Program-made: the position numbers and the translations under genes
Shown: piece after piece, positions 4,487 through 61,702 of the stretch
How the letters are laid out: the number at the start of each line of letters is the position of its first letter
Numbering within the stretch: position 1 is the stretch's first letter
DNA from: an uncultured Ignavibacteriota bacterium
Lineage (GTDB): Bacteria; Bacteroidota; Ignavibacteria; Palsa-1295
NCBI GenBank assembly: GCA_903900335.1
Contig: CAIUMP010000062.1
Coordinates: 62,001 to 126,000, forward strand
Length of the DNA stretch: 64,000 nt
Reading direction: 5' to 3'
The notes under the pieces: generated by a model
Database searches by the model: none
Told to the model about the DNA's origin: nothing
What the model saw: the letters and a program-made list of their open reading frames with translations, nothing else

Positions 4487-4533
4487 CTACTGATTTTCGA
4501 TTTCACGAATAACCTATTCTAAGGAGTATAACC

Positions 4534-4926: not shown

Positions 4927-4928
4927 TC

Positions 4929-5423: not shown

Positions 5424-5473
5424 GTCATCGCACCATTTTTTCAAACGACAAAAGTTTAACTTAGAAACACTAC

Positions 5474-44005: not shown

Positions 44006-45103
44006 CTAGTTCTTCACAACGATAACTTTTCCGTTCGGCTTTGCAAAGGTCTGGCCGGTCACGATAACCTGTTCGGTGCCGTCAAGGCCGGATAGAATCT
44101 CTGTGCGCCCGTTCTCCGCCACACCTGTCTGAACTGGAATGCGCTTTGCAAGCGTGTCCACGACCGCGAGCACATAACTGCCATCCTTATCTGGCAGCAC
44201 GGCTTCGGTTGGAACCGTGATCGCATTCGGATGCTGCCCCAGCGCGAGTGACACATGTGCAAACGAGCCTGGCTTGATCGCTTCATCATGATTGGGGATC
44301 ACAATTTCCACCGCCATGGTCCGAGTAGTAGTATTGATGGACTGGGCCGTTCTGGAGACGGTGCCATAGAATTCACGCCCGGGCAGCGTACTCAATGAAA
44401 TGACCGCGCGCTTAGCATTCGGCAGCTGAGGAATATCGCGATCCAGAACATTGATGTCGATCTTGACCGTATCAATATCCATTATCGTAAACAGCGTCGT
44501 GTTGCTGCCGGGAGCGCCATTCGTTGGCGTTGCGGAGACCGTCGTACTCGTCGAGACCACCGAACCCGGATCGAGGAACCGCTTTGTGACGTAGCCATGG
44601 AACGGTGCGCGGATCTTCGCATAGTCAAGCCGAATCCGCGTTGCGTTGTAGCTTGCCTCCGCAGATTTTAGCGCTGCCTCCGCGTTATCCAGATCCTGTT
44701 TTGCAGCGAGATTCTTCGAGACCAAAGTGCGCGTTCGAGATTCCGTCGCCTTTGCGTTAAAATACACGGCAGCCGCCTGCTCCTCCGTTTGATAGGCCTC
44801 AGTTGTGTCAATAACTGCAATCAACTGGCCTGCACGAACAGACTTACCCATGTCGGTGAGAACCGATTCGAGCGTTCCGGCGACCTTGCTGAAAATGTTC
44901 GCTTGTAAAACAGGTAGGACGTCCCCGTCATACTCGAGCTTGTAAGTGATGTCGCGGCGTTCAGGTAGCGCAATGCGAACCAGCGGCGTTGCCTGCTTCT
45001 TCTGCTCCGGTGGTTTCGCCGCGGAGATGACCCGATAGACGATAAACGCCACGGTGGCCAGCCCGACGAGCGCGATAAGGGAATACTTGACGGCTCTATT
45101 CAT
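44006..45103 (-). CDS. RND efflux pump periplasmic adaptor (HlyD/AcrA-like)
   Basis: 365 residues. One N-terminal membrane helix (SLIALVGLATVAFIVYRVIS) is followed by a lipoyl/biotinyl-like half-motif (GKSVRAGQLIAVIDTTE), a helical hairpin (about 110-165, KNLAAKQDLDNAEAALKSAE) and the second lipoyl half (IRAPFHGYVTKRFLDPGSVV). The membrane-proximal beta-barrel is in the C-terminal half. It should link the pump to an outer-membrane channel. It is the first gene of the operon and the region upstream (to 45517) must hold the shared promoter. Confidence 0.95.
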   Translation of the reverse strand: MNRAVKYSLIALVGLATVAFIVYRVISAAKPPEQKKQATPLVRIALPERRDITYKLEYDGDVLPVLQANIFSKVAGTLESVLTDMGKSVRAGQLIAVIDTTEAYQTEEQAAAVYFNAKATESRTRTLVSKNLAAKQDLDNAEAALKSAEASYNATRIRLDYAKIRAPFHGYVTKRFLDPGSVVSTSTTVSATPTNGAPGSNTTLFTIMDIDTVKIDINVLDRDIPQLPNAKRAVISLSTLPGREFYGTVSRTAQSINTTTRTMAVEIVIPNHDEAIKPGSFAHVSLALGQHPNAITVPTEAVLPDKDGSYVLAVVDTLAKRIPVQTGVAENGRTEILSGLDGTEQVIVTGQTFAKPNGKVIVVKN

Positions 45104-45517
45104 AGACTACAATATCTGATACGATGGTATCTGACCGATGTACTAGCCACCGCAGCGGGTTGGCCGGGAATGGTGCGTAAGCAGACTATTGACGATCCGC
45201 TAATGCTTCGGCCCATACAATACGATACGAGCCACTCTGGTTTCAGAGTGCCGTGTTAACAAACGCTGACTGCCAAGATTCGCCCGTTCGTGGACCGAAC
45301 ACACCTAAAATGGTCTGATAGGAGCAGCAAAGCCTGGTTGTAGATTGGCCATGTTGGAGCCGGTAGTACGTCCGGGGTTTAAGCATTGTTGCGTGAAGAA
45401 TAAGTAACCATCGGACGATTTGGAAGGAACGCTATTTTGCAACTGTGTGATAGCACTGACACAACTTTCTTCACAAGGGAGCTGGAACGACCTGTCACTT
45501 CTACAACGTCAGTTCGA
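45104..45517. other. Intergenic region between divergent RND operon and glycan locus
   Basis: No gene recognised. A 7-bp hairpin (cactctg/cagagtg, 45233-45250) and a 13-base motif ggaacgctatttt at 45426-45438 were noted. The latter recurs at 46255-46267 upstream of the second Anp1-like gene. It should contain promoters for both directions, but no convincing -33/-7 pair was found. Confidence 0.55.
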
Positions 45518-46216
45518 ATGCGCATCCTGATCGCCACACCCGCTTACGGCGGAATGATTACGACGAAATACGTTCACGGGATTCGAGAATCCATTTATGG
45601 ATCCTTGATGGAGAAGGATCTGCAACTCGTCCTTACGACGATTCATAACGAATCCCTGATTAATCGTGCAAGGAATAATTTTGCCAGTATGGCGATCGAG
45701 CACAAGTATGACCGGCTGTTGTTCATAGATGGGGACATTGGATGGCACTGGCCGGATCTGCTTGCGATAATCCGGAGTAACAAGCGGGTCGTCGGGGCTG
45801 CCTACCCGAGAAAGCATCTGCCGATATCACTGAACTACGGTCTCTTTCCAGAGCAGGCGGCCTCCGTTCGGTTCGCGAAGGATGGCCGTGAGAAGCACGA
45901 GATGCTACGCAAGCTTGCCGATCAGCTTACGGGGGAGTTGGAAGTGGCACATGTTCCTACGGGCTTTCTACAGATCGACGTCAGTGTATTCCATCAGCTC
46001 GCCGACAAAGTGGCCTCGTACGTGGACCTGGACGGTTCCAGTGACACGTTGAAGGAAATCCGCGATTTCTTCCCGATTCGCGTGGTCAACGGAGAGATTC
46101 AGCCTGTGGACCAGGCATTCTCCTCGATCTGCAGGGAGAACGGAATTCCCGTCTACTTGAATACTAACGTGATCCTAGAGCATACGGGTCAATACACATT
46201 CGATGTTCCTCGATGA
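45518..46216 (+). CDS. Anp1-like/GT-A glycosyltransferase, paralogue 1 of 4
   Basis: 232 residues from ATG 45518. RILIATPAYGGMITTKYVHG is the shared N-terminus. HNESLINRARN (43-53) is followed by DGD at 71-73 in RLLFIDGDIGWHWPD, the metal- and nucleotide-sugar-binding DxD of a GT-A fold, then AAYPRKHLPIS, VAHVPTGFLQIDVSVF and the C-terminal block ENGIPVYLNTNVILEHTGQY. The combination NES..RARN + F(I)DxD resembles Anp1/GT62 mannosyltransferases, but the acceptor is unknown. The frame is open 81 bases further upstream without matching the paralogues. First gene of the + block of the glycan locus. Confidence 0.72.
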   Translation: MRILIATPAYGGMITTKYVHGIRESIYGSLMEKDLQLVLTTIHNESLINRARNNFASMAIEHKYDRLLFIDGDIGWHWPDLLAIIRSNKRVVGAAYPRKHLPISLNYGLFPEQAASVRFAKDGREKHEMLRKLADQLTGELEVAHVPTGFLQIDVSVFHQLADKVASYVDLDGSSDTLKEIRDFFPIRVVNGEIQPVDQAFSSICRENGIPVYLNTNVILEHTGQYTFDVPR

Positions 46217-46347
46217 GTTTTGTGGCTTCCGAGTTCAAACAACTGGCCGAGAGCGGAACGCTATTTTCTCATAATTTGATAGAATGCACGCGGTTGCAAC
46301 AGTTGTGGCCCGGCCCCTGAATAGAGCATACTATTTAATCCTTTACG

Positions 46348-47061
46348 ATGCGAATTTTGATCGCGACCCCCGCATATGGCGGGATGTTAACCACGAAATA
46401 CGTCCACGGCATCCGGGAGTCCATCTACGGCTCTCTTCGAGAGGGGGATTTGGAACTGGGGTTGTACACCATGCATAACGAGTCGCTCATTAATCGTGCT
46501 CGGAACACGTGTGCCGCGATCGCAATGGAGCATGGCTTCGATCAGTTGGTTTTCATTGATGGGGACATCGGCTGGCACTGGCCGGATCTGCTCGCGATAA
46601 TACGGAGTAACAAGCGGGTCGTCGGTGGAACATATCCGAAAAAAAGCCTGCCCATCTCGCTGAATTATAACGTCATTCCCAATAGCGTACCAAATTTTGA
46701 TAATCGCCGGAAAAGCTTCGAGGATCACAAATTACTGCGTCAGTACGCTGACCCAGTGACGGCAGAGTTAGAAGTCGCTCACATTGCCACCGGCTTTATG
46801 AAGATCGATGTTAGCGTGTTCCATCAGCTTGCGGACAAAGTCCCGTTCTACATTAATCGCGATGGCTATGGTGATATGCCAAAAAAGGTCAGCGATTTCT
46901 TCCCCGTTCGCGTTCTCAACGGGTTTATGGAGTCGGAAGATTGGGCGTTTTGCACGATTTGTCGCGAGAACGGAATTCCGGTCTACCTGAATACGAATGT
47001 GATAGTTGACCACACGGGCTCCTACACCTTTGATGTTCCCCGTCCATTTCCAGCGGTATAA
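46348..47061 (+). CDS. Anp1-like/GT-A glycosyltransferase, paralogue 2 of 4
   Basis: 237 residues starting directly with MRILIATPAYGGMLTTKYVH. Motifs as in paralogue 1: HNESLINRARN, FIDGDIGWHWPD and GTYPKKSLPIS. AHIATGFMKIDVSVF and SEDWAFCTICRENGIPVYLN follow; the ESEDWAF segment is better kept here than in paralogue 1 (QPVDQAF). It shares a 65-base near-identical stretch with paralogue 1 at the DxD region. A 13-base motif ggaacgctatttt lies 81 bases upstream in the same position relative to paralogue 1. The next paralogue starts 3 bases after its stop. Confidence 0.75.
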   Translation: MRILIATPAYGGMLTTKYVHGIRESIYGSLREGDLELGLYTMHNESLINRARNTCAAIAMEHGFDQLVFIDGDIGWHWPDLLAIIRSNKRVVGGTYPKKSLPISLNYNVIPNSVPNFDNRRKSFEDHKLLRQYADPVTAELEVAHIATGFMKIDVSVFHQLADKVPFYINRDGYGDMPKKVSDFFPVRVLNGFMESEDWAFCTICRENGIPVYLNTNVIVDHTGSYTFDVPRPFPAV

Positions 47062-47064
47062 GCA

Positions 47065-47754
47065 ATGCGTGTCATGATCTCTACGCCTGCCTATGGCGGG
47101 CTTCTGACTGTCAACTACTTGAGCAGCATGCTCGATACGATCGCGCGTTTCTTTCAAGAGCGGGTAGAATACAACGTACTGACGATCGCGAACGAATCGC
47201 TCATCTCGCGCGCCCGGAATATCAGCGCAACGATGGCCATGGAAAAGGGCTATGACAAACTGGTATTCATTGATTCCGACATCGGATGGAAGTGGGAGCA
47301 ACTTGCCGCACTCTTGCGCAGCGATAAGTTGGTAGTCGGCGGCACGTACCCTCTGAAGCAACTTCCGCTTTCACTCAATTACAATGTCTTCCCCGAGCAC
47401 GAGCGTTTGTTTGCGCAGAATGGTGTAAAAAGCTATGAAGCTCATGCCGAATTTGGGAAACTCTCAGACCCATCCACCCGTGAAATAGCCGTCCGAGATA
47501 TTCCTACAGGATTCATGGTGATCGATACCCGCGTCTTGCGTGCATTGCGGGAGAAAGTAGCGGCCTATACGGATTACCGTATCGGACTGCCCACCCAAAG
47601 CGTTAGCGATTTCTTTCCTGTTAGAGTGCGTGATGGCATCCTCGAATCAGAGGATTGGGCATTCTGTTCACTGTGCCGCGAGCACGGAATTCCAGTCTAC
47701 CTTAACACCGCTGTGGTGGTAAGCCACACTGGTAGCTTTGTCTACGGCGGCTAA
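47065..47754 (+). CDS. Anp1-like/GT-A glycosyltransferase, paralogue 3 of 4
   Basis: 229 residues. MRVMISTPAYGGLLTVNYLS, then ANESLISRARN and FIDSDIGWKWEQ with DSD at 70-72. GTYPLKQLPLSLNYNVFPEH, RDIPTGFMVIDTRVL and the ILESEDWAFCSLCREHGIPV block with YLNTAVVVSHTGSFVYG close it. It is more diverged from paralogues 1 and 2 than they are from each other. It starts 3 bases after paralogue 2 and ends 13 bases before the fucosyltransferase start, so translation is probably coupled. Confidence 0.75.
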   Translation: MRVMISTPAYGGLLTVNYLSSMLDTIARFFQERVEYNVLTIANESLISRARNISATMAMEKGYDKLVFIDSDIGWKWEQLAALLRSDKLVVGGTYPLKQLPLSLNYNVFPEHERLFAQNGVKSYEAHAEFGKLSDPSTREIAVRDIPTGFMVIDTRVLRALREKVAAYTDYRIGLPTQSVSDFFPVRVRDGILESEDWAFCSLCREHGIPVYLNTAVVVSHTGSFVYGG

Positions 47755-47767
47755 TATCAGAATCCGC

Positions 47768-48520
47768 ATGGTGACGTTTCTCAAGCTTGGTAAGCATGGA
47801 AGATTCGGCAATCAGCTTTTCCAGATCGCTTCTACCATTGGAATTGCAACGCAAAACGGACACCAATTCGCGTTTCCCTTTTGGTTCAATCATGATCAGA
47901 ATTTCAGAACAGGGGGGACCGATGGCAATGTTCAAGAACATTTCGCTCGGCCACTGCCCTTGATACCACGAGCACTGAACTTCGAAGAGGTCGTGGTAGA
48001 ATTCGGATTCAGTGATATTAAGCTTGGCGAAGGTGACTTCTCGATCTTTGGCCATCTTCAAAGCGAGCGGTATTTTCGACATTGTCCCAAGATTATTCGC
48101 GCGTTTTTCACTCCAAGACGTCCGGTCGAGTCACCACTCGGTGCAGGGACGTGCGCCGTTCATATCCGGCTTGGCGATTACGACGGCAAGCTACATTTGC
48201 GTATGGGCGCGGACTACTACAGGAAGGCAATGGCGCTGCTCCCCGGCGGCACACGATTTGTTGTTTTTAGCGATGAGCCGGATGCTGCGCACAAACTGCT
48301 GGGACCGAATCACGAGTATGTTACGCCGAGTCAATACATCTCGGATTTCTTCCTCATGGCCACCGCAGAGCACAATATCATTGGCAACTCCAGCTATAGC
48401 TGGTGGGCAGCATGGCTCAACGCAAATCCGGACAAGATCGTGATTTCACCGAAAACCTGGTTTGGCTCCGACGAGTTAAGTACCAAAGATATCAACTGCG
48501 AGGGGTGGCGTGTAATTTAG
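47768..48520 (+). CDS. Alpha-1,2-fucosyltransferase-like (GT11)
   Basis: 250 residues. GRFGNQLFQIASTIGIA is the GT11 N-terminal block (GxxGNQxFQ). HIRLGDY (132-138) is the HxRxGDY GDP-fucose binding motif, and MATAEHNIIGNSSYSWWAAW is the third GT11 signature. It would transfer L-fucose from GDP-fucose, the product of gmd and fcl in the convergent block. In family members the linkage is usually alpha-1,2. The ATG at 47768 was chosen because the motif follows directly; an upstream ATG in the same frame overlaps paralogue 3. Confidence 0.92.
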   Translation: MVTFLKLGKHGRFGNQLFQIASTIGIATQNGHQFAFPFWFNHDQNFRTGGTDGNVQEHFARPLPLIPRALNFEEVVVEFGFSDIKLGEGDFSIFGHLQSERYFRHCPKIIRAFFTPRRPVESPLGAGTCAVHIRLGDYDGKLHLRMGADYYRKAMALLPGGTRFVVFSDEPDAAHKLLGPNHEYVTPSQYISDFFLMATAEHNIIGNSSYSWWAAWLNANPDKIVISPKTWFGSDELSTKDINCEGWRVI

Positions 48521-48593
48521 TGAGCAAGCACTGACCGCGTTACGGGATCCAGCTACAGAGCCTCCACAAAGTCCAAATTTCCAAGCCTAGCAC

Positions 48594-49280
48594 ATGCGCC
48601 TTCTGATTGCAACACCCGCGTACGGCGGCCTTGTCACGACGCCTTACCTGCAGAGCCTCTATCAAAGCTTTTTCGGACTTCAACGCCTAGGGGTTGAGTT
48701 TGGGCTCACTACGATCGCGAATGAGGCGCTGATCTCACGAGCACGCAATACATGCGCTGCGGTAGCGATGCACGAAAAGTACGACAAACTCATGTTTATC
48801 GACGCAGACGTTTCGTGGAAGTGGGAAGATCTGGAAGCGCTGATCCGCAGCGACAAACCTGTTATCGGCGGCACTTACCCGAAGAAATCGCTTCCGATCG
48901 AGTACAACTACAATGTGCTTCCCTTGCACCGGACGGCCTTCGCCAACCACAACCGAAGGAACCCCGCAGACCATGCGTTATTGAGATCACTCGCCGACCC
49001 AGCCACCGGGGAGATCGAAGTGCTGCACCTTCCGACGGGCTTCCTCATGATCGACGTCCGGGTATTGCACGCACTGAAATCCAAGGCCGAAACCTATCGA
49101 CACCTGGAGCTTGGCACGATCGGTGGAGAAGTCTGGGATTTCTTTCCGGTGCGTGTTCGCGATAAGATCCTCGAAAGCGAGGATTGGGCATTTTGCACGA
49201 TGTGCAGGGATAGTGGCATTCCGGTCTATCTGAACACCAACGTCATCGTGAACCACACGGGGTCTTACACGTTTGGGTGA
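48594..49280 (+). CDS. Anp1-like/GT-A glycosyltransferase, paralogue 4 of 4
   Basis: 228 residues. MRLLIATPAYGGLVTTPYLQ, ANEALISRARN, FIDADVSWKWED (DAD) and GTYPKKSLPIEYNYNVLP. LHLPTGFLMIDVRVL, ILESEDWAFCTMCRDSGIPV and YLNTNVIVNHTGSYTFG close the protein. Its last about 40 bases (49241-49280) recur as decayed copies after three downstream genes. It is followed by the FkbM fusion 34 bases later. Confidence 0.77.
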   Translation: MRLLIATPAYGGLVTTPYLQSLYQSFFGLQRLGVEFGLTTIANEALISRARNTCAAVAMHEKYDKLMFIDADVSWKWEDLEALIRSDKPVIGGTYPKKSLPIEYNYNVLPLHRTAFANHNRRNPADHALLRSLADPATGEIEVLHLPTGFLMIDVRVLHALKSKAETYRHLELGTIGGEVWDFFPVRVRDKILESEDWAFCTMCRDSGIPVYLNTNVIVNHTGSYTFG

Positions 49281-49313
49281 TCTTAACGCGTATTATTGCA
49301 ACGAAGCGATTCA

Positions 49314-50795
49314 ATGAAGGTAAGCGAACTTGTTTCAAGGTACGGCATGGCGATCCGTGGGATCATCCATGTAGGAGCACATTTTGGCCAGGAATATAGT
49401 GAGTATCGTACGCTCGGGAATCCGAATCTCATGTTCTTCGAGCCGATGCAAGCTAGCTATCTGGGGCTCCTCAGGAATTTGGGATTTGGGCAGTATGCGG
49501 AGCGCTGCGAAAGGAATGAAGGCCAATCACATCTTATAACGCATCACCTCGCTTTGGGAACGGAAGCGGGCCAGATCACTATGCACACGGAGACGGCCAA
49601 CCAGGGCATGTCCTCATCCATACTGCGACCAAAGACCGTCCTGCAACAATATCCAGCGATTCAATTTACTGGTCAGGAAACGGTGAGGCAAGCGCGGCTC
49701 GATGAGGTCTTCCAGACGGAGTCCATCGAGCACTATAATATGCTCGTGATCGACGTGCAGGGGTATGAGAAGTATGTCATCGAGGGTGGGCTAAATGTGC
49801 TCGGGACGATGGACTTCGTCATCACGGAGGTGAATCGACAAGAACTCTATGAAGGCTGCACAACGATCCAGGAAATGGATATTCTCTTGTCGAGCCAGGG
49901 ATTTGTGAGAATCGAAACAGATTGGGAAGGTGACACTTGGGGGGACGCCCTCTATGTCCGAACGCAATTTCAACAGAACATCGTGGCATCCATGGTGCAA
50001 CAGAACCTTGCGGTAAACGCGAGCCAATCGAATTCAGCGCCCACTTTGACGTTCAGCACGATCGTCGGTGTCATAGACAAGGTGCGAACCCAACTTCAGG
50101 CTCACCCGGGTGACATTCAGGCGCGGTTCACAAGTTATTGCGCGACGTATCACAGCGCCTCTCGTGCGCAGTTGTTTCAGGATCTCTTCGTTCTGTTCGT
50201 TCTCAACGATAAGAAGGCCGGTTATTTTGTAGAGTTCGGAGCCGCCGATGGCGTATTTCTAAGCAACACATTCTTGTTGGAGCGCAATCGAGGATGGCGT
50301 GGCATACTCGCGGAACCGGCGCGCACATGGCATGCTGCTCTTAAGGCTGGCAATCGGACGGCGATCATTGATACGCGCTGCGTCTGGTCCCGATCTGGCG
50401 AAACCCTCACGTTCAACCAAACGGAGGATGCAGCGCTTTCTACGGTTAACTCGTTTAGTGATACAGACATGCACAGTGCCGCTCGCTCAACGGGGGAGCG
50501 ATACGATGTGGAAACAATCTCGCTGACGGACCTGCTCGATTTCCACGATGCCCCGACGGTCATAGACTATCTTTCTATAGACACGGAAGGCTCGGAACTC
50601 GTTATTCTCGAGAACTTCGATTTTGATAAGTATCGGTTCAGTATCATCACTGTGGAGCATAATTATGCAGAGCCAGCGCGGTCAAGATTGCTTGCACTCC
50701 TAACGGCAAAGGGCTATTCACGCGTCTTCGAAAATTTCTCCCGATGGGATGACTGGTATCTTCATTCTTCCATCCTGAGCCGCTCCGAAGGGTGA
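49314..50795 (+). CDS. Double FkbM methyltransferase fusion
   Basis: 493 residues made of two FkbM-type SAM-dependent methyltransferase domains. Domain 1 (about 1-215) has GIIHVGAHFGQEYSEYRTLG (motif I) and MLVIDVQGYEKYVIEG (the D-x-x-G-x-E region). Domain 2 (about 248-493) has FVEFGAADGVFLSNTFLLER and LTDLLDFHDAPTVIDYLSID, then TEGSEL and TVEHNYAEP. The two domains are only distantly related to each other; domain 2 is close to the separate gene at 50879. FkbM enzymes O-methylate hydroxyls of sugars or polyketides; here they probably methylate glycan sugars. ATG 49314 is used; a TTG 18 bases upstream is possible. Confidence 0.87.
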   Translation: MKVSELVSRYGMAIRGIIHVGAHFGQEYSEYRTLGNPNLMFFEPMQASYLGLLRNLGFGQYAERCERNEGQSHLITHHLALGTEAGQITMHTETANQGMSSSILRPKTVLQQYPAIQFTGQETVRQARLDEVFQTESIEHYNMLVIDVQGYEKYVIEGGLNVLGTMDFVITEVNRQELYEGCTTIQEMDILLSSQGFVRIETDWEGDTWGDALYVRTQFQQNIVASMVQQNLAVNASQSNSAPTLTFSTIVGVIDKVRTQLQAHPGDIQARFTSYCATYHSASRAQLFQDLFVLFVLNDKKAGYFVEFGAADGVFLSNTFLLERNRGWRGILAEPARTWHAALKAGNRTAIIDTRCVWSRSGETLTFNQTEDAALSTVNSFSDTDMHSAARSTGERYDVETISLTDLLDFHDAPTVIDYLSIDTEGSELVILENFDFDKYRFSIITVEHNYAEPARSRLLALLTAKGYSRVFENFSRWDDWYLHSSILSRSEG

Positions 50796-50812
50796 TCCCC
50801 CGCCTGCCGAAA

Positions 50813-50851
50813 GTCATTGTGAACCACATGTGGTCTTACACGTTTGAATAA
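50813..50851 (+). pseudogene. Vestigial 3' tail of an Anp1-like GT gene, remnant 1
   Basis: Reads VIVNHMWSYTFE then TAA in frame, matching the tail VIVNHTGSYTFG of paralogue 4; most bases agree with 49241-49280. It lies 17 bases after the FkbM fusion and 27 bases before the next gene. No body of the gene remains. Confidence 0.75.
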
Positions 50852-50878
50852 ATTTGGATTACTATTTCACCTCCACAA

Positions 50879-51646
50879 ATGGCAGAAGACAAGCAAGTTA
50901 CGATGGAGCAGATGCTCATACTATTGGAGTCACTCCGAAGCTACGTGCAAGCGCATCCGGGGGATGCGCAAGCACGGTTTGTCGCGTTTTGTGCAGCGAA
51001 CTTGATGCAGTCTCCTTCTCAGAATTTTCAGGATCTGTTTGTACTCTTTGTGCTCGATAACAAGAGGGAGGGATTCTTCGTGGAGTTCGGGGCCGCCAAT
51101 GGGCTCTATATAAGCAATTCGCTCTTGCTGGAGCGGCGCATGGGCTGGAACGGAATTCTAGCAGAACCGGCACGAAGCTGGAAGGCGATACTCCAGGCCA
51201 GTGGCCGACGCGCTACGATTGATACACGATGCGTATGGAGTCGATCCGGAGAAGCGCTGACCTTTAACGATACTGAAGATGCGATGATAGCAACGGTGAA
51301 CGCCTTTAGCGACGTAGATAGCCACAGTGCCGAACGAGTGACAGGGAAGCGCTACGAGGTGGAGACGATCTCTCTGACTGACCTGCTGGATTTCCACAAC
51401 GCACCGAAGGTCGTTGACTACCTCTCTATAGACACCGAAGGATCAGAACTCGTCATTCTCGAGACCTTCGATTTTGAAAAGTATCAGTTTAATGTCATCA
51501 CGGTAGAGCACAATTACACCGAGACTGAGCGTGCAGGTCTGTTTTCACTTCTGACCGCAAAAGGGTATGTGCGCGTATTCGAAAGCTTTTCCGGCGCGGA
51601 TGACTGGTATGTTCATTCTTCCATATTGAACCGCTCCAATGGATGA
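50879..51646 (+). CDS. FkbM-type methyltransferase, copy of the fusion's second domain
   Basis: 255 residues. FVEFGAANGLYISNSLLLER (motif I), RCVWSRSGEALTFNDTEDAM, LTDLLDFHNAPKVVDYLSID, TEGSELVILETFDFEKYQFN and ITVEHNYTE. It aligns along its whole length with domain 2 of the upstream fusion, including identical TDLLDFH and SIDTEGSELVILE. This is a recent tandem duplication. The SAM-binding acidic residues (Glu/Asp in FVEFGA and SIDTEG) are present. Predicted O-methyltransferase of the glycan locus. Confidence 0.87.
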   Translation: MAEDKQVTMEQMLILLESLRSYVQAHPGDAQARFVAFCAANLMQSPSQNFQDLFVLFVLDNKREGFFVEFGAANGLYISNSLLLERRMGWNGILAEPARSWKAILQASGRRATIDTRCVWSRSGEALTFNDTEDAMIATVNAFSDVDSHSAERVTGKRYEVETISLTDLLDFHNAPKVVDYLSIDTEGSELVILETFDFEKYQFNVITVEHNYTETERAGLFSLLTAKGYVRVFESFSGADDWYVHSSILNRSNG

Positions 51647-51660
51647 TCTCGAGCTGCCAC

Positions 51661-51694
51661 TGGCTTCGTGAACCACAGGGGACTTATACGTTTG
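51661..51694 (+). pseudogene. Vestigial 3' tail of an Anp1-like GT gene, remnant 2
   Basis: gtgaaccacaggggacttat followed by acgtttgg matches the paralogue 4 tail (gtgaaccacacggggtctta, cacgtttggg) with a one-base deletion that breaks the frame. It lies between the FkbM copy and the TylF fusion. Confidence 0.7.
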
Positions 51695-51826
51695 GAAATG
51701 GAAGCCAAATTGTGACTGAAGCATTGCGAACGGATCTATCCCATGACGGAGATGCGTTAGATGATTCGCGACTGTAATTATAGGTGTACAATTGGGTTCT
51801 AAAGAACCTCATTAAGAAGACAACGA

Positions 51827-53128
51827 ATGAAGCAGACGTTGAACGAAGTATTGCAAACGGAGATCAAATTTCCAACTGTGTACTTGGAAATGTGGAATCG
51901 CTTTTCGCCATACACAATGATATCACAGTGGCACTTCATTGAGAACCTGGCTATTATTCAGCACCTCGGGACACAGATGGCTGGAGCATTTGTCGAGTGC
52001 GGGACGTGGAAGGGCGGAATGTCGGCCGCCATGATGAACATCGGTGGCCCTAATCGGGATTACCATTTCTTCGATTCCTTCGAAGGACTGCCGCCGGTGC
52101 AGACAATTGACGGCCCCGCCGCAGTGGGATGGCAAGCCAAAACAGATAGTGTAGAGTATTACAATAACTGCACTGCTAACTATGAGGAATTCCGCTCTCT
52201 CCTTGCACAACAACCTATTCCCAGCGAGCGTGTTCATATTCACAGAGGCTGGTTTAAGGATACTTTGAAGGATTTCCCTAGACAACCCATCGCCACACTC
52301 AGGCTCGATGGGGACTGGTATGAATCAACAATGGAGTGCCTCCAACGGCTTTTTCCGCTCGTCGTCCCAGGCGGTGTAATTATCATTGATGACTACCAGA
52401 CATGGGACGGATGCGCTCGGGCAGTGCATGATTACCTTAGCGAGGAAGGATCCGTTTCTCGAATTCGGCAGACCCCATACTCAGGTGTGACCTACCTCAT
52501 TAAAGAGGACAGTTGGAAGGAAGCTCCACTGCTGGTCGATACGGACAGGTACAGAGGTAATGAGGCATACGTGAGGCACGGTATCTGGACCTTCCAGGAA
52601 GCGCGATCCGAGCACATGTTCGATGAGAGTCTTGCAATTGCCATCAGCCAACTGTTTCCGCAAAAGCCTGCCTCTATGGCCGATCTTGGCTGCGGACCCG
52701 GATTTTATTGTGAGTACTTCGCCGCTAAAGGGTGGGACGCCCAAGGGTATGAAGGAACGCCTGGAGCGAGCGAATTAGGACACTATCGTCGAATCATTAC
52801 ACAAGATCTGAGCGTGAGGGATGAATCGCTCCCAAAGCATCCGTTCGTGATGTCGCTGGAAGTGGGGGAGCACATTCCGAAGGAGTTTGAGGCAAATTTC
52901 TTGGATAATGTCTGTGCGATGGCCGCTGGCACCTTGATCTTAAGTTGGGCAGTTCCGGGGCAAGGTGGATACGGGCATTTCAACGAACAGCCCAATGACT
53001 ACATCATCCAGCAGGTGCAGGCACGAGGTTTGACGCTCAATGTGCCAGCGAGCAATCATCTTCGAGAGGGAGCGACGTTCAGATGGTTTAAGAATACACT
53101 AATGGTCTTCGAACGCGGTAAAGGATGA
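51827..53128 (+). CDS. TylF-like methyltransferase fused to a second methyltransferase domain
   Basis: 433 residues in two parts. Residues 1-230 form a TylF/macrocin O-methyltransferase domain: GAFVECGTWKGGMSAAMM, YHFFDSFEGLPP, ATLRLDGDWYESTMECLQRL and PGGVIIIDDY. Residues about 251-433 form a class I SAM-methyltransferase module with MADLGCGPGFYCEYFAAKGW, SLEVGEHIPKEFEANFLDNV and ILSWAVPGQGGYGHFNEQPN. The latter is shared with the opposite-strand gene at 54744-56159. TylF enzymes methylate hydroxyls of sugars in antibiotics and glycans. Probably two successive O-methylations in one polypeptide. Last gene of the + block. Confidence 0.9.
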   Translation: MKQTLNEVLQTEIKFPTVYLEMWNRFSPYTMISQWHFIENLAIIQHLGTQMAGAFVECGTWKGGMSAAMMNIGGPNRDYHFFDSFEGLPPVQTIDGPAAVGWQAKTDSVEYYNNCTANYEEFRSLLAQQPIPSERVHIHRGWFKDTLKDFPRQPIATLRLDGDWYESTMECLQRLFPLVVPGGVIIIDDYQTWDGCARAVHDYLSEEGSVSRIRQTPYSGVTYLIKEDSWKEAPLLVDTDRYRGNEAYVRHGIWTFQEARSEHMFDESLAIAISQLFPQKPASMADLGCGPGFYCEYFAAKGWDAQGYEGTPGASELGHYRRIITQDLSVRDESLPKHPFVMSLEVGEHIPKEFEANFLDNVCAMAAGTLILSWAVPGQGGYGHFNEQPNDYIIQQVQARGLTLNVPASNHLREGATFRWFKNTLMVFERGKG

Positions 53129-53143
53129 AGGCATTCACGTTTG

Positions 53144-53179
53144 CCTGAACACGAATAGCGTCGTGAACCACATTGGGAA
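53144..53179 (+). pseudogene. Vestigial 3' tail of an Anp1-like GT gene, remnant 3
   Basis: Reads LNTNSVVNHIGN in frame, matching LNTNVIVNHTGS of the paralogues. It lies just after the TylF fusion and overlaps the end of the convergent GT9-like gene's 3' flank. Confidence 0.65.
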
Positions 53180-53944
53180 TCATAGATATTTGCAAATCTT
53201 GTCAACTACATCGCGTGGCTCGATTAACATCATGCACTTGTGGTTGTTTGGGCAGCCAGTGCGGAGAAAGCAGTTGCGACACTCTACCGGCAGGAACAGT
53301 GCCTCATAAGGGTAGGTAGCTCCCCAGTGGTAATAATTGCTATACCCGCTTTGGAGAATGAGACCTTTATTCACAACCCCGGCAACATAGTGACTCATAC
53401 CCGTATCCAGTCCGAGATAGAGTTTACTTTTCTTCACCCAATTGAGCACGGCATTGCCGCGAATCTTATCAATGCTGAGATCCTTCCACCTCACTCCTCG
53501 CTGGTTTAGTAGCTGCTTGATTTCATTCATTCGCGGATATTCGCGATACTTGCTATGAACGGAGACCTCCGAACAGATCACGACATCGGTTCCGATGATG
53601 GATGGGTCATCGTGATACCTGACCGGCACGGTAGGTCTGCTGATAGGGATTGGGGGAAGGACAAAATCCGCGCTGAAATTGTCGAGAGCTGTCCGAAGCA
53701 TAGTTCGCCCGTCCCATTTTGGTGCTTGGCCATAATTGAAACGCCATGATTTCATTTCCGTGCCGTCCCATAGTGGCACGTCAACGAGCGCGCGAAACGC
53801 CGGGTTATCGTGCCACCAACAGGCTTCGGTTCCGAAGTCGTTGAGGATTGCGACCATCTGGGCGGCCATGAGTTCGTCGCCGAGAAACTCGTTGTTCCGA
53901 TAGATCAGGATCACGTTACACCGCTGCCTTCCTGGTTGCTGCAA
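53180..53944 (-). CDS. Glycosyltransferase family 9-like (heptosyltransferase-like), short form
   Basis: 254 residues. VILIYRNNEFLGDELMAAQM is the N-terminal strand-loop. YLGLDTGMSHYVAGVVNKGL is the GT9 donor-site motif (GxDTGxSHxA), and ECRNCFLRTGCPNNHKCMML is the Cys-rich GT9 C-terminal block followed by I.P..V. GT9 proteins are usually about 330-350 residues, so this is short, mostly in the middle and N-terminal domain. It adds a heptose-like or other sugar by inference. Last gene of the minus block. Confidence 0.72.
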   Translation of the reverse strand: MQQPGRQRCNVILIYRNNEFLGDELMAAQMVAILNDFGTEACWWHDNPAFRALVDVPLWDGTEMKSWRFNYGQAPKWDGRTMLRTALDNFSADFVLPPIPISRPTVPVRYHDDPSIIGTDVVICSEVSVHSKYREYPRMNEIKQLLNQRGVRWKDLSIDKIRGNAVLNWVKKSKLYLGLDTGMSHYVAGVVNKGLILQSGYSNYYHWGATYPYEALFLPVECRNCFLRTGCPNNHKCMMLIEPRDVVDKICKYL

Positions 53945-54007
53945 GTTTAGATGGCATGATTAATCCAACCTGGGATAGAATCGCCCTGCATCCCAAATTG
54001 AATTTGG

Positions 54008-54739
54008 TCACACAAGTTTGCCGTTTCGTAGGATTTCCAATTCCTGAGGTGTGATCTGTTGAAGATAGAATGGCTTGCGGGTGTCAATTCCAAACGATGG
54101 GCGCGTTCTCCCGTACCCAAATGGTAGGTGGCCGATTTTCCCCATACTGTAGTCCATAATTTCGGCGAACTTAATTTCCGGTCTTTTGTATTTGCCTTTC
54201 CCACCATCACTCCCGGGCCATTCCAAAAACAATTTCACGAATTCAAGGATAAAGGAATGCTTGATAATCGTCAAGCTCTGTTCGAGTCTCATTCCCATGA
54301 CGTTTTCACGGCCGACAAGCATCTCGCATCCAGTTTCGTCGAGTGTTCGATACATTAGATCAACCCAAGGGCCAAACGCGAGACAATCTTGTTCCTTGAA
54401 GATATAATCGCAATTGTTCGCATAGGCCGTCATTGCACCGAGGATGTACGCTGCCGACCAGCCACAAAATTTTGGCGAAATATCCATGCTGTCGAGATCG
54501 TGCGCATGACCTAAGTTGTGCTGAAGGTACAGCCACTGGCCTTTCCTAAGTTCTGGCGCAGGCAATTGGTCGCTCGGAGCGGCGATGGTGATAATATCAA
54601 CGGGGCGAGCGAACATTGTTGTATTCTTCAACCAGATATCGAAGAACGCGCAGATACGGTTGGCTTCGGCCTGACTGCCGGTGTTCCGCCAATTCTTCCC
54701 GCAAAAAAAACCCGTAGTAATGATATACCGTTGATCCAT
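54008..54739 (-). CDS. Glycan-locus protein of unrecognised family
   Basis: 243 residues. I recognise no named family. Visible features: a start MDQRYIITTGFFCGKNWRNT, the acidic loop IFKEQDCLAFGPWVDLMYRT, CEMLVGRENVMGMRLEQSLT and IGHLPFGYGRTRPSFGIDTR. FKEQDCLAFG could occupy the position of a GT-A acidic motif, making a glycosyltransferase fold plausible but unproved. It is 4 bases after the methyltransferase fusion and 63 before the GT9-like gene on the same strand, so it should act in the same glycan pathway. Confidence 0.6.
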   Translation of the reverse strand: MDQRYIITTGFFCGKNWRNTGSQAEANRICAFFDIWLKNTTMFARPVDIITIAAPSDQLPAPELRKGQWLYLQHNLGHAHDLDSMDISPKFCGWSAAYILGAMTAYANNCDYIFKEQDCLAFGPWVDLMYRTLDETGCEMLVGRENVMGMRLEQSLTIIKHSFILEFVKLFLEWPGSDGGKGKYKRPEIKFAEIMDYSMGKIGHLPFGYGRTRPSFGIDTRKPFYLQQITPQELEILRNGKLV

Positions 54740-54743
54740 GGAT

Positions 54744-56159
54744 TCAGGTTACTCGTTCAAACGCCATGAGAGTCGCTTCGAACCACCAAAGTGTCGCTGC
54801 TTTACGCAGCCGCGCTGTTCTTTCAGGATTGAAGCGAAACCCATGTTCTTCAATTTGCTGGACGACATAGGGATTCTCACGCTCGTTGAAGTGGCCGGTG
54901 CCCCCCTGTCCCGGAATTGCCCAACTCAGGATCAGATTCTTTTTCGCGATCGAGGTCACATTGTCGAGGAAATTTGCCTCAAATTGTTTCGGTATGTGCT
55001 CACCGACCTCTAAACAGAGGACTAATTCGTATTCCGGAATCTTATGCTGGGGCTGACTAAGATCGACCTGTTCGATTCGTTCATAGATACCCATATCCTT
55101 GGCTTCCGCCAATCCCTCATATCCCTGGACATTCCACCCGGCTCGGTTGGTAAAATGACGACAATACTGCCCGAGCCCACATCCAAGATCGGCAACGGAT
55201 TCTGGGGCTATGGGAAATTCTCTAATTATCGCATCGGCGAGTGATTCGTCTATGTAATGGCCGGTACGGGCTTCGTCAACAGACCAAATCCCACTATTGC
55301 GGAACAGTTTTATTGTGGTTTGATCGGCGTTTGTCAGATCAACCTGTGCCACCCCATTCGGATCATCGCTCTGCCCGGTTGCATTTCGATCATGTTCCCA
55401 CTCTAATTGTGCTTCTGGCCATCCCAGAAGATGCGCGGGAATTTCCCAGTTCGCAGCAGGATCGGGGATGTGATGGACGGGCTGCACATTCCCGCGCCAG
55501 GCAACGCCCATTATCTGAGATGTATGGAAGATGCGTGTCTTCCATCCTCGATACCGGAAATACTGAAGCCCTTCAGCAACGTGAGGGGAGAGCAAGTCGT
55601 GAAAGAGAACCATTGCGTCGGGTGCGCAATAGCGTTCGCAGACCACCGCGTCGTTCACCGGGCCGGGGAAATCATGGTTGCCATCAATGAACATGAGCGA
55701 CCATCGCTTATTGGTTCGTCTCACCAGTTCTACTACTGCATCTGGGCTGGAGCCTGTGTAAAGCCTCACTGGTGTTGGGACACCGGCCTTGTTGATCGAG
55801 CTGCTAACGCTTTCGAAGTAAGACGAGTCCGCGAGCAGCGGATCAATGACGTCCAACGCCACACCCCCTAGAGCCAGGTGGCAGGCAGACCACCCCATAA
55901 AACAACCGATCTCCAGCGCTTCTTTGCCCTGAAAGAGGCGTGCAGTGTTGTACAAAATGTGCGCCTCATCTCGGTTCGCAAATCCTACGTTCGGCTTCCG
56001 GCGGTCGCAGTACCAATTGTGGTTCCCGGTTCGTCGTAAATATTTCCAGCTACAGGCAGAGGTGTCGCCTATGGTCAGGTTGGGGAAACTTGCGTCAGGT
56101 CGTACCCTGAGGAATCCAGGAGAAACGTAATCACCAACGGGGAATTCAATATCGGTCAT
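54744..56159 (-). CDS. Methyltransf_24-like methyltransferase fused to the shared second methyltransferase module
   Basis: 471 residues. Residues about 60-225 form a Methyltransf_24-like domain: EALEIGCFMGWSACHLALGG (motif I), SLMFIDGNHDFPGPVNDAVV and MVLFHDLLSP. Residues about 289-471 are the same module as in the opposite-strand TylF fusion: VADLGCGLGQYCRHF, CLEVGEHIPKQFEANFLDNV and ILSWAIPGQGGTGHFNEREN. An unusual Cys/Trp/Tyr-rich N-terminus (about 30-55) precedes. Predicted bifunctional methyltransferase of glycan residues; 4 bases from the next gene. Confidence 0.87.
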   Translation of the reverse strand: MTDIEFPVGDYVSPGFLRVRPDASFPNLTIGDTSACSWKYLRRTGNHNWYCDRRKPNVGFANRDEAHILYNTARLFQGKEALEIGCFMGWSACHLALGGVALDVIDPLLADSSYFESVSSSINKAGVPTPVRLYTGSSPDAVVELVRRTNKRWSLMFIDGNHDFPGPVNDAVVCERYCAPDAMVLFHDLLSPHVAEGLQYFRYRGWKTRIFHTSQIMGVAWRGNVQPVHHIPDPAANWEIPAHLLGWPEAQLEWEHDRNATGQSDDPNGVAQVDLTNADQTTIKLFRNSGIWSVDEARTGHYIDESLADAIIREFPIAPESVADLGCGLGQYCRHFTNRAGWNVQGYEGLAEAKDMGIYERIEQVDLSQPQHKIPEYELVLCLEVGEHIPKQFEANFLDNVTSIAKKNLILSWAIPGQGGTGHFNERENPYVVQQIEEHGFRFNPERTARLRKAATLWWFEATLMAFERVT

Positions 56160-56198
56160 GAGCGAATCGAGGATTTTAGGTGGTGCTGCTTGGTAGGA

Positions 56199-57068
56199 TT
56201 ACGTGGTAAGCCCGATCTGCTTGTAGATCTCATACATCCTAACAGTCTGCTCCTGAAACGTGACCAACTGGTTGGAGTTCACGAGGTGAGCGACGGCAAT
56301 CTTTCTCTCTGGCTCCGCCGGAGTAACCCATGCTCGCACGGCGGCATTCCAGACTGGCATGCTGTATCTGCAAAGCCAATTGTACGTCGGTGGTGCTATC
56401 ATTGGATTGCCGACTTCTGCGATAGCAACGTTCATGGCATCCTGTTCACGTCCCCAGTGAACGCCGTGGGGCATTGTTATGCTGAGGTTGCGCTTGTAGC
56501 GCGCCCACAGCGGAGAATCGGCTCGCGCAGCGAAGAGCCCAGCATTGAACATGTTGTAGTATTGAAAATACTGGGCGATCTCTACTCCAAATTCGTCGGA
56601 GAGTCTCTGAAATGCGTCCGAGTGGTGCTCTCGATTTGAAATCGGATTCGCATTGAAGGAGTAGGTCGATTCCGACTCATGCGCTATCACGACAGAGTTC
56701 GCGGGATTCAAAGCGTGATTCACGTAAAATTGCAGACCATCGGGCTGCAAAAAGCGGATGTCAGAATCGATCCACACGTACGCCGCGTATCCGGGGAATG
56801 TCTCCGGAATATACGGGCGACACGTCATTGCAACATAGTGCTTTTCGCCGGTTGAAAATTGAGGAAACCGGCTAAGATCGGTCAGCACCTCAATACCGTT
56901 CTGCCGCAGCCAAGCTTGATGTTCGGCGATCATTCCAATCGAGATCACTTTGATGTCGAACGTCCGACCGAGCGGAAATCGCACGATACTCTCCAAAGTA
57001 TCCCGTAGGTACCCAAAGTAGTTTGAATCAGAGGCGAGGACGAGACAAATCTGAGCCGAAGGCATCAA
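56199..57068 (-). CDS. Glycosyltransferase, GT8-like (GT-A fold)
   Basis: 289 residues. The N-terminal strand ICLVLASDSNYFGYLRDTLE is followed by YVWIDSDIRFLQPDG with the DSD metal site near residues 97-101. VVIAHESESTYSFNANPISN, YNMFNAGLFAARADSPLWAR and HWGREQDAMNVAI (the acidic D in the EQDA helix) resemble GT8-type acceptor and donor regions. It is about the right length for a bacterial GT8. Donor and acceptor are unknown. It lies between the GT2-like gene and the methyltransferase fusion. Confidence 0.75.
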   Translation of the reverse strand: MMPSAQICLVLASDSNYFGYLRDTLESIVRFPLGRTFDIKVISIGMIAEHQAWLRQNGIEVLTDLSRFPQFSTGEKHYVAMTCRPYIPETFPGYAAYVWIDSDIRFLQPDGLQFYVNHALNPANSVVIAHESESTYSFNANPISNREHHSDAFQRLSDEFGVEIAQYFQYYNMFNAGLFAARADSPLWARYKRNLSITMPHGVHWGREQDAMNVAIAEVGNPMIAPPTYNWLCRYSMPVWNAAVRAWVTPAEPERKIAVAHLVNSNQLVTFQEQTVRMYEIYKQIGLTT

Positions 57069-57182
57069 TATGGTCGCTTAGTGGTGTTGAACGTAGCTCA
57101 AAAGTGAGTACTGCAGAAGTTGGGGTTAATGTGTACAGGCAAGAAACCGTTCCGCTAGCGCCGCAGACTGCACCTGCCTCCC

Positions 57183-57881
57183 TTAATCGTTCGTGCAGTA
57201 GGCTTGAAACATCCCGATTAACTTGTCCGGGCACGTCTGATTGACGGTATGGTGGTTGGATTGTCCTGGCTCGCCTCCAAGCTTTGAAAGGAATTCTAGC
57301 GCGAGTCTATCATCGTTATAGCTGAGCGTTTCGCGATACCGCGGTGCCATCGCCACCGCTAACTCCCGTCGGATCAAATAGGTGTTGCCATCCACGAGGT
57401 CGTAGCCTAACTTGTTGCCCATCCCGATGCTCTCAAAATCGTCTTTGCCGATGAATGTGCCGTTCGGATGCCAGATCTTCCTCCGCGAGAAACCCCAGTT
57501 CTTACCTTCAACCGCACTAAGCAGGGCAGTGTAGTGATCGCGTTCTATCCAGCAATCATCATCTTGAAAGGCGACCCACGGGGTGTCCGCCGCCATTATT
57601 CCAACAGCCCGCAGTGCTGCGCCCGCCGTTGGCTTTTTGACGAAATTCCCAGGGATTGTAATCTGGTAGCGCTTACCATGCGGCGGGGCGTCACAGTATT
57701 GCTCCGGTGGTAGTGCCTTCTCTGCTCGGTAGTCATCAAAAAGAATGATGTGACAGAAGGGGACCGGCTGATCATCAATGCTCTGAATGAGTCTCCATAA
57801 ATTCGGTCTGCCGATCGAGGGCGTAATGATCGTTATCAGTGGAGTCTGTGGGTTCTCCTCCTGGTTAAGGTAAACTCTCAT
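57183..57881 (-). CDS. Glycosyltransferase family 2-like
   Basis: 232 residues. LITIITPSIGRPNLWRLIQS is the GT2 N-terminal strand-helix, and WVAFQDDDCWIERDHYTALL holds the DDD metal-binding acidic cluster. It is followed by WGFSRRKIWHPNGTFIGKDD and, near the C-terminus, ETLSYNDDRLALEFLSKL with the acidic catalytic-base-like region. A small soluble GT-A enzyme with no membrane helix. It starts 3 bases after the fcl stop, in the same operon. Confidence 0.85.
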   Translation of the reverse strand: MRVYLNQEENPQTPLITIITPSIGRPNLWRLIQSIDDQPVPFCHIILFDDYRAEKALPPEQYCDAPPHGKRYQITIPGNFVKKPTAGAALRAVGIMAADTPWVAFQDDDCWIERDHYTALLSAVEGKNWGFSRRKIWHPNGTFIGKDDFESIGMGNKLGYDLVDGNTYLIRRELAVAMAPRYRETLSYNDDRLALEFLSKLGGEPGQSNHHTVNQTCPDKLIGMFQAYCTND

Positions 57882-57884
57882 TCG

Positions 57885-58817
57885 TTACTGCGCGGTCGTT
57901 AGAAAATCAGAATATGCCAAAGCAAGGCCATCACGAAGCTGCGTCTTGGGCAGCCATCCCATCTTGTGCAGGCGCGTGCTGTCCATCAGCTTCCGTGGTG
58001 TGCCGTCTGGCTTTGTGTCGTCGAACTGAACGCTGCCAGTGAATCCTGTGACCGCTTGGATCAACTCTGCAAGTTGCTTGATGGTCACTTCTTGTCCGCT
58101 GCCGACATTGAGGAATTGCCGCTCGTCATAATTCTTCATTAGAAAGTAGCATGCATCGGCAAGGTCATCCACGTACATAAATTCCCTAAGCGGAGTGCCG
58201 GTACCCCATAGCGTGACCGAGTCCGCGTTGGCATTCTTCGCCTCGTGGAATTTGCGGATCATGCCTGGGATAACATGAGAGTTCATTGGATGATAATTAT
58301 CACCTAGGCCGTAAAGATTCGTCGGCATACACGAGATGAAGTTGCAACCGTACTGGTCGCGATAGGCCTCGCACAGTTTGATGCCAGCGATCTTTGCGAT
58401 TGCGTAAAACTCGTTCGTCGGTTCGAGCGGACCGGTCAGCAGCGATGCCTCCTGGATGGGTTGCGCCGCCAACTTTGGATAGATACAGGAGCTGCCAAGG
58501 AAGAGCAACTTCTGCACTCCGGAAGTGTACGCAGCATGAATGACGTTGGTCGTCATGCTGAGGTTGTCGTAGATGAACTCGGCGCGATAGGTATTGTTTG
58601 CGAGGATACCTCCGACTTTCGCCGCAGCCATGAAGACGAATTCAGGCCTGTTCGCCGCAAAGAAATCATTGACGGCACGCTGATCGCGCAGGTCTAACGC
58701 ATCAGACCCAGCAGTAAGGATATTGTTGAATCCATCCTGCCGCAGTCGTCCAACGATCGCAGAGCCCACCATCCCGCGATGACCTGCGACAAATATCTTC
58801 GAGTCTGGTCGCATCAT
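57885..58817 (-). CDS. fcl: GDP-L-fucose synthase
   Basis: 310 residues. [20 protein letters not shown] has the Rossmann GxxGxxG motif. The short-chain dehydrogenase triad is visible: Ser in [10 protein letters not shown] and Tyr-Lys in [25 protein letters not shown] and [20 protein letters not shown] are diagnostic for Fcl. It epimerises and reduces GDP-4-keto-6-deoxymannose to GDP-L-fucose with NADPH. The ATG overlaps the gmd stop (ATGA), so ATG 58817 was used; the frame continues upstream inside gmd without homology. Confidence 0.97.
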
Positions 58818-59926
58818 TCGAATTGGTTTAGAATGCGGTAACCCGCTTGATGCGCAAGCTTTTCCCGGCTGAAGATATGTAGATCGGATGCCACCATCTC
58901 TTCGACGAGTTGCTGAAGCGTGTGCTTTGGCTCCCATCCGAGCTTTGTCCGCGCCTTAGAGGCATCGCCGAGCAGCATGTCAACCTCTGTTGGCCGGAAG
59001 AAACGTGGATCAACCTCAACGACGGTGTCGCCGATCGAGACATCACATTCGGGGTTTGTCAACCCGCAGACCACCGCTCTCTCACTGACGCCTGAGCCGA
59101 CAAATTCCAGTTCGATCCCGGCATGTGCAAAGGCCAATCGCAGGAATTCGCGAACGGATGTTGAAACGCCGGTGGCGATGACGAAATCTTCTGGTGTGGG
59201 ATGCTGCAACATGAGCCACATGGCCTCAACGTAGTCTTTAGCGTGGCCCCAATCTCGCTTGGCGTCGAGATTCCCGAGGTACAATTTCTTCTTAAGTCCC
59301 AATGCGATCTCGGAGACTCCGCGCGTGATCTTCCGCGTGACGAACGTCTCGCCGCGCATTGGGCTTTCATGGTTGAATAGGATTCCGTTACAGGCGAACA
59401 TTCCGTACGCCTCCCGGTAGTTCACGGTGATCCAGTAGGCATATAGCTTAGCCACACCGTATGGCGAACGGGGGTAGAAGGGGGTCGCCTCTGTCTGCGG
59501 CGTCTCCCGCACATCCCCATATAGCTCAGAGCTGGACGCTTGGTAGATGCGCGTCTTGTCGATCAAGCCGAGAATGCGTATTGCCTCCAGCAGCCGAAGC
59601 GTTCCGACGCCGTCTGTGTTGGCAACGTATTCCGGCTCATCGAAGCTGACGTGAACGTGGCTCATCGCTCCAAGATTGTATATCTCGTCCGGCTGAACAG
59701 ACTGGATAATTCGAATAAGATTAGTAGAGTCGGTAAGGTCCCCGTAATGCAGCACCATCCGCAGATCCGATTCGTGCGGATCCTGATAGAGATGATCTAT
59801 CCGCTGCGTGTTGATAAGCGAGGTTCGCCGCTTAATTCCATGGACCTCATAGCCCTTCTCGATAAGCAGCTCGGCGAGATACGCGCCGTCCTGCCCAGTG
59901 ATGCCTGTTATGAGTGCGCGTTTCAT
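58814..59926 (-). CDS. gmd: GDP-mannose 4,6-dehydratase
   Basis: 370 residues. [20 protein letters not shown] carries the NADP-binding GxTGxxG motif. [53 protein letters not shown] (the YxxxK pair) and [20 protein letters not shown] are the Gmd blocks. It converts GDP-D-mannose to GDP-4-keto-6-deoxy-D-mannose, used by the next enzyme to make GDP-fucose. Full length. It precedes fcl with a 4-base overlap. Confidence 0.97.
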
Positions 59927-59998
59927 GCTGTGTGTAATCCTATTGCTCCATTCATAGATGCTTCTCGTCGCACAGTTGTACCCATTTCGGATGCGCCA

Positions 59999-60721: not shown

Positions 60722-60776
60722 AGTGCAGCCGTCAACAATGATCGCAGTGGATTTGGTCGCATGGAAACTCTTGGTG

Positions 60777-61544: not shown

Positions 61545-61667
61545 TGTCTGTTTAGAGTAAATTAGAAACTTTCTGTGGAGACGACCGCTTTCACCGTGTC
61601 GCCCCTTAAAGGCGCGGTCGGAAGCCATGCTCTGCGCGACAGGAGCATTCGTCGGATGTGCTACGTT

Positions 61668-61675
61668 CAAATATA
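61668..61675 (-). promoter_or_regulatory. Candidate -7 box for AIM24
   Basis: TATATTTG on the minus strand (61675-61668) matches TAnnTTTG exactly. A TTG lies 16 bases further upstream, a slightly short spacer. The start codon is 124 bases downstream, so a long leader would be implied. Confidence 0.3.
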
Positions 61676-61702
61676 CGAAGTCTAAGAGAAGCAACCTTGG
61701 GT

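Follow-up and report, generated by a model that had tools for sequence, protein, structure and literature searches.

The window analysed here is a 64,000-nt stretch of a 4.0 Mb genome and corresponds to positions 62001-126000 of its contig. It contains a variable glycan island without an assigned strand (45104-61657), which lies between a membrane-fusion-protein gene (44006-45103) and a PAP2 gene (61658-62740). A same-genus genome (G004, locus L241) carries one nagB-like gene between the same two flanks, compared with 16.5 kb of island here, and the glycan cluster sits in a species-specific island. Because GDP-fucose genes and a GT11 family enzyme are also located within the island, its product is probably a fucosylated, methylated surface glycan.

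Four paralogous glycosyltransferase (GT) genes are encoded in this island. GT4 (48594-49280, + strand) is intact, and its product of 228 aa matches the profile of phrog_1574, the family to which these GTs belong, over its full length (residues 3-227, E 7.8e-28). GT1, GT2, and GT3 (45518-47754, + strand) are older intact paralogues of GT4, with 50-59% amino acid identity to it and silent sites near saturation. The leaders upstream of GT1 and GT2 (45426-45453 and 46255-46282, offset 829) are 75% alike over 28 nt; that duplication therefore carried the leader along. The fold is GT-A, near those of COLGALT1, Mnn9, and viral A197. An earlier reading of this DNA made from the sequence only (the sequence-only reading) had called the family Anp1-like. 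By sequence this is weak, as Pfam Anp1 (PF03452) reached only E 0.016 on GT4 and missed the gathering cut-off (15.1 bits versus 28.8). By fold it is plausible, with the Anp1 member Mnn9 among the top Foldseek matches (E 1e-7), although COLGALT1 ranks above it. The GT family was not found in 40 relatives or in two overlapping draws at the class and phylum levels (391 and 395 genomes, ~390 each); among about 800 genomes, from genus to phylum, it was found in this genome only. No related locus was detected in these genomes, in phages, or in plasmids, and the DNA of the locus gave no match to phages and plasmids.

Downstream of GT4 lie three methyltransferase genes, all on the + strand. FkbM1 (49296-50795; the start may be the ATG at 49314) has two FkbM methyltransferase domains, and its C-terminal domain is a paralogue of the neighboring FkbM2 (50879-51646), which has one domain, with 67% amino acid identity. 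Among phage records, the N-terminal half of FkbM1 is closest to cyanophage proteins (about 39%). The third gene (51827-53128) encodes a fusion of a TylF-like and a class I methyltransferase and belongs to another methyltransferase family than FkbM. The three genes had been described as unrelated, which is true of the TylF-like fusion but not of the FkbM paralogues. A second fusion protein is encoded at 54744-56159, on the opposite strand in a convergent operon; the C-terminal methyltransferase halves of the two fusions are 54% identical, and their N-terminal halves best match different methyltransferase families. Pairing with a methyltransferase was not seen as a general trait of the GT family, and the gene behind a GT is usually not a methyltransferase. 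In one viral contig (L045:6001-7281, also L046 and L047), a single ORF runs from the GT through into a putative class I methyltransferase domain, which was read from the sequence alone and gave no family match.

The 3' end of GT4 (49215-49280, + strand) is homologous to three short orphan sequences, hereafter tails 1 to 3, for which GT4 is the source. Tail 1 (50810-50851) begins 14 nt past the FkbM1 stop codon; its positions 50810-50846 correspond to GT4 49239-49275 with 33/37 identical bases (89%), and the reading frame and a stop codon are kept. Tail 2 (51657-51695) begins 10-19 nt past the FkbM2 stop codon. Its secure core, 51666-51695, corresponds to GT4 49246-49276 over 28 of 31 columns (90%) with one gap, confirming the single deleted base reported earlier. 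Tail 3 (53130-53177) begins 1 nt past the stop codon of the TylF-like fusion gene and corresponds to GT4 49215-49262 (36/48, 75%). Its source thus lies about 20-65 bases ahead of the GT4 gene end and the last 18 bases are missing, so that the earlier description of the tails as the last about 40 bases of the gene holds for tails 1 and 2 but not for tail 3. Tail 3 also ends 2 nt ahead of the stop codon of a convergent gene (53177-53182); the scar therefore marks the junction of the two operons. As the sequence-only reading had stated, each copy follows a methyltransferase gene with no GT body: all tails are on the + strand, they start 1-19 nt past a methyltransferase stop codon, and neither a 5' nor an internal GT remnant was found anywhere in the window.

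We evaluated the significance of the three matches in several ways. When the GT4 end was searched with blastn against the whole 4.0 Mb genome, the tails were the best matches apart from the GT genes, with E-values of 4e-7, 3.8e-4, and 0.03, followed by 0.72 for the next match. The comparison with shuffled controls that the sequence-only reading had proposed bore out the recurrence at all three sites: the local-alignment score was 54 for tail 1, 45 for tail 2, and 36 for tail 3, whereas the best of 1,000 dinucleotide shuffles per tail scored 26, 35, and 27, respectively, so that no shuffle reached the score of its tail. When, for control purposes, the two ends of each of 54 genes were searched against the window, the GT4 3' end alone had orphan copies; the remaining off-gene matches were paralogues or stretches of 16-24 nt at E 0.003, near the chance rate. 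The sequence TCGTGAACCACA, with at most one mismatch, has four occurrences in the window, one at GT4 and one at each tail (0.26 expected), and a 10-nt core, GTGAACCACA, is kept in all four. Tail 3 on its own is marginal (E 0.03 genome-wide, 2.6e-4 within the window), but its location immediately after a stop codon, in the same orientation, makes it credible. Homology does not continue downstream of the GT4 stop codon, and the spacers there are unrelated. The sequences 3' of the GT4 stop and 3' of tail 1 are not alike (p 0.8), and sharing between the stop-to-tail spacers of the two FkbM genes (tails 1 and 2) is not significant (p 0.10). These results indicate that the three orphan tails are real. 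Their presence, clustering, and orientation, the lack of other GT remnants, and the GT4-lineage ancestry described below are direct observations.

Among the GT paralogues, the tails are closest to GT4. The tails and GT4 share 28/38 third positions (74%), a count made by hand on alignments that partly reflects selection for similarity, compared with 44/120 silent sites in the 3' ends of the paralogues (p 8e-5). In the FkbM pair, only 27/83 fourfold sites are identical (Fisher p 3e-5 against the tails), and the fraction in GT paralogue pairs is 0.28-0.53, i.e., near saturation. The silent-site divergence of the FkbM pair was about 1.7 substitutions per site (Jukes-Cantor estimate), whereas in a neutral-decay simulation tails this similar were obtained only at divergences of up to about 0.5-0.6 substitutions per site. 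Since the silent sites of the FkbM genes are near saturation and those of the tails are not, the tails are not neutral relics of an old FkbM and GT duplication; they derive from the GT4 lineage and are younger. Over 31 columns, tail 1 differs from GT4 at four sites, tail 2 from GT4 at three, and tail 1 from tail 2 at six. Tails 1 and 2 are thus mostly independent copies, each being closer to GT4 than to one another. Tails 2 and 3 have two variant sites in common and tails 1 and 3 have one. First, second, and third codon positions all carry differences, a spread like that of dead sequence. No RNA structure above that of shuffled sequences and no promoters or terminators were detected at the tails. 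The tails carry no sign of a selected function: they lack structure and a terminator, and the counterpart stretch of GT1-GT3 lacks constraint.

We consider it reasonably likely that the tails are scars of insertion and displacement, left when three methyltransferases were added one by one at the GT 3' end. The incoming piece would have been a methyltransferase, probably with a GT4-like allele or a GT fragment as an anchor. The incoming GT-homologous sequence would recombine through the resident GT, and the far end would join illegitimately within the 3' end of the resident GT, the tail of which would stay behind the new gene. Each event would keep one intact GT gene, resident or incoming, and the tail left behind would be an incomplete 3' end from the resident GT allele or an older one. 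With each addition, earlier methyltransferases would be displaced downstream, giving the arrangement GT4, FkbM1, tail, FkbM2, tail, TylF-like fusion, tail. FkbM1, which adjoins GT4, would be the newest gene, and the TylF-like fusion with tail 3 the oldest. The first junction was probably formed by homology-facilitated illegitimate recombination with the homology upstream, and for later junctions the tail itself may have provided the short homology. Neither a strain or close relative with this locus nor a donor sequence was found, and neither an empty site nor an intermediate was seen; it is for this reason that we infer the insertion events, together with their order and mechanism. Identity to GT4 drops with distance (89%, 90% with a gap, and 75%), the direction expected if the newest gene adjoins GT4, but the trend is not significant (tail 1 versus tail 3, p 0.16), and because the tails are short, the proposed order rests on few sites. 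The tails do form a readable record of locus assembly, as the sequence-only reading had described them.

A parallel case was found in a survey of the GT family, in which 117 other family loci with a complete GT 3' end were scanned for orphan tails. One was clear, L092 from a Sphingomonadales MAG, a distant relative, and the others were at chance level. The candidates L056 and L057 were rejected, as the query had extended past the GT stop into acyl-CoA dehydrogenase paralogues. No orphan tails were found in 80 viral relatives of the L092 GT, nor was the tail pattern found in viral contigs. In L092, a DUF1963 gene (4503-5894) stands behind the GT (to 4499) and is itself followed by an orphan GT 3' tail (5954-6009; 86%, E 6e-15, stop codon included) with weaker similarity from 5926; this case is limited by the contig, which ends 11 nt past the tail. 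In two relatives that share the upstream gene order, L229 and L230, other genes come after a single GT, and there is no DUF1963 gene and no tail. Because both are lacking there, the insert and the tail in L092 arrived jointly, and a second GT is not needed in that case. The first 42 nt of the L092 tail match the GT allele of a relative, G703, at 39/42 positions and the GT of L092 itself at 36/42, whereas across all 57 nt the GT of L092 is the better match (48 versus 41). A G703-like start would be expected of a tail that derives from a replaced allele. Every junction, that of L092 among them, lies in the final 6-11% of the GT (under uniform breakpoints, p about 2e-4). This clustering at the GT end is left unexplained by pure illegitimate recombination; it would be explained by reuse of the first tail as short homology or by a real preference for the gene end. 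It is doubtful that the 3' end of this GT family is a preferred insertion point that has repeatedly captured genes, in unrelated bacteria and without an integrase.

The sequence-only reading had preferred another history, in which ancestral GT-methyltransferase units were duplicated and the three GT bodies were later deleted. The 3' ends would then have been kept perhaps because they carry the leader of the next gene. Tails lying between methyltransferase genes with traces of a reading frame, in tail 1 with a stop codon, are what such deletions would leave, and tails 1 and 2 stand at near-equal offsets behind the FkbM paralogues (849 versus 851 nt). Yet the silent sites of the FkbM genes have approached saturation and those of the tails have not, the spacer between FkbM stop and tail is not significantly common to both (p 0.10), and a 5' or internal GT remnant is lacking in the window. 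Three independent deletions would all have had to stop in the last tenth of the GT (0.096^3, about 1e-3 under uniform breakpoints). Behind tail 3 there is no + strand gene to protect it, and L092, a comparable case, has a tail where its relatives show no second GT. With three recent GT4 duplications and three deletions, this history is also less parsimonious, and it seems unlikely. One part of it survives, because displacement implies that earlier GT alleles stood at the tail sites. The alternative that the same reading had offered, a recurrent junction adding cassettes, fits better than its main proposal.

Simple tandem duplication, with the left breakpoint in the GT4 3' end, the right one behind FkbM, and unequal crossing over at the tail repeats, would need no body deletion and would produce both tail 1 and the FkbM tandem in a single step, together with the 849 and 851 nt offsets. 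It is nevertheless very unlikely: silent sites of the two FkbM copies are close to saturation, the N-terminal domain is missing from FkbM2, the regions behind the GT4 stop and tail 1 are unlike (p 0.8), and tail 3, behind an unrelated gene, is left unexplained. An integron-like reading, in which selection maintains the tail as a functional element of DNA or RNA (a recombination site, a terminator, or a processing site), would account for the alternation of gene and tail and for the 10-nt core GTGAACCACA in GT4 and all tails, but we regard it as highly improbable. The tails have no RNA structure above shuffles, no terminator, and no promoter; the attC-type GTTRRRY core is absent when their sequence is read by eye; the genome yielded no tyrosine recombinases besides XerD and a XerC-like protein, and no IntI; and the 3' ends of GT1-GT3 are unconstrained at silent sites. 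Chance, or convergence on the conserved C-terminal motif of the GT family that the tail-matching region of GT4 encodes, is hardly credible given the genome-wide E-values, the single strand, the same placement behind stop codons, and the loss of frame in tails 2 and 3; for tails 1 and 2 this explanation is refuted, and tail 3 by itself is marginal.

The displacement reading has counterparts in known systems. In the type VI secretion system (T6SS) immunity arrays of V. cholerae, each new module displaces the upstream gene and shifts the older downstream genes further back, and the 3' end of a displaced effector was once left behind (PMC5361080). The locus resembles these arrays in having one intact upstream gene followed by retained downstream genes, here probably from successive insertions, and in that the 3' end of a displaced upstream gene can remain between array genes. 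The intact anchor GT4 is followed by partial GT 3' ends in the same orientation between retained genes, and the array genes are not recent duplicates within the locus, given the fourfold sites of the FkbM pair (27/83) and the separate family of the TylF-like gene. Unlike in the T6SS arrays, the genes here are a glycosyltransferase and methyltransferases, three short 3' ends (31-48 nt) occur consecutively, all from the last tenth of the gene, and the locus is known from one genome, without a strain series ordering the events. In Rhs loci, where homologous recombination with circular intermediates was proposed for displaced C-terminal tips (PMC2935791), direct repeats of part of the upstream gene likewise punctuate an array of displaced downstream pieces. 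The Rhs fragments, however, consist of part of the core and a different tip, whereas the repeat here comes from the very 3' end, and whole, separate genes lie in between.

Integron cassette arrays are similar in that single genes in one orientation are each followed by a short repeat, but the repeat here is the coding end of a glycosyltransferase, with no attC-like structure and no integron integrase. No attC sites (RYYYAAC and GTTRRRY cores, folding inverted repeats) were found at the tails: no fold exceeded shuffles, and no GTTRRRY was found by reading. IntI was not found in the genome; XerD scored above its NCBIfam cut-off and the XerC-like protein just under the XerC cut-off, and both scored far below the integron-integrase cut-off. 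As in islands at gene 3' ends (tRNA-type att sites), the target gene is intact and its 3' end is repeated beyond the insert, but no integrase lies in or near the cluster, the inserts are single genes, and the copies are 75-90% identical rather than exact. As no tyrosine recombinase other than XerD and the XerC-like protein was found, an integrase of the integron type or the tRNA-island type is unlikely.

Few bacterial loci vary as much as surface-glycan clusters, and the addition of single decorating genes to such clusters has mostly been inferred by comparing strains. Here, a single genome preserves the junctions, from which one can read in what order three additions took place and how their ages compare. 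This mode of growth is known from toxin-immunity arrays; in a limited search of open papers, we came across no description of scars of this kind in a glycan cluster, and this lends weak support to their novelty. If the displacement model is true, the mechanism of toxin-immunity arrays would also build glycan-modification arrays, and orphan 3' ends would be a searchable signature of it. If the GT 3' end were in addition a preferred insertion point, glycan-modifying genes would pile up like cassettes via recombination on the last tens of bases of a GT gene.
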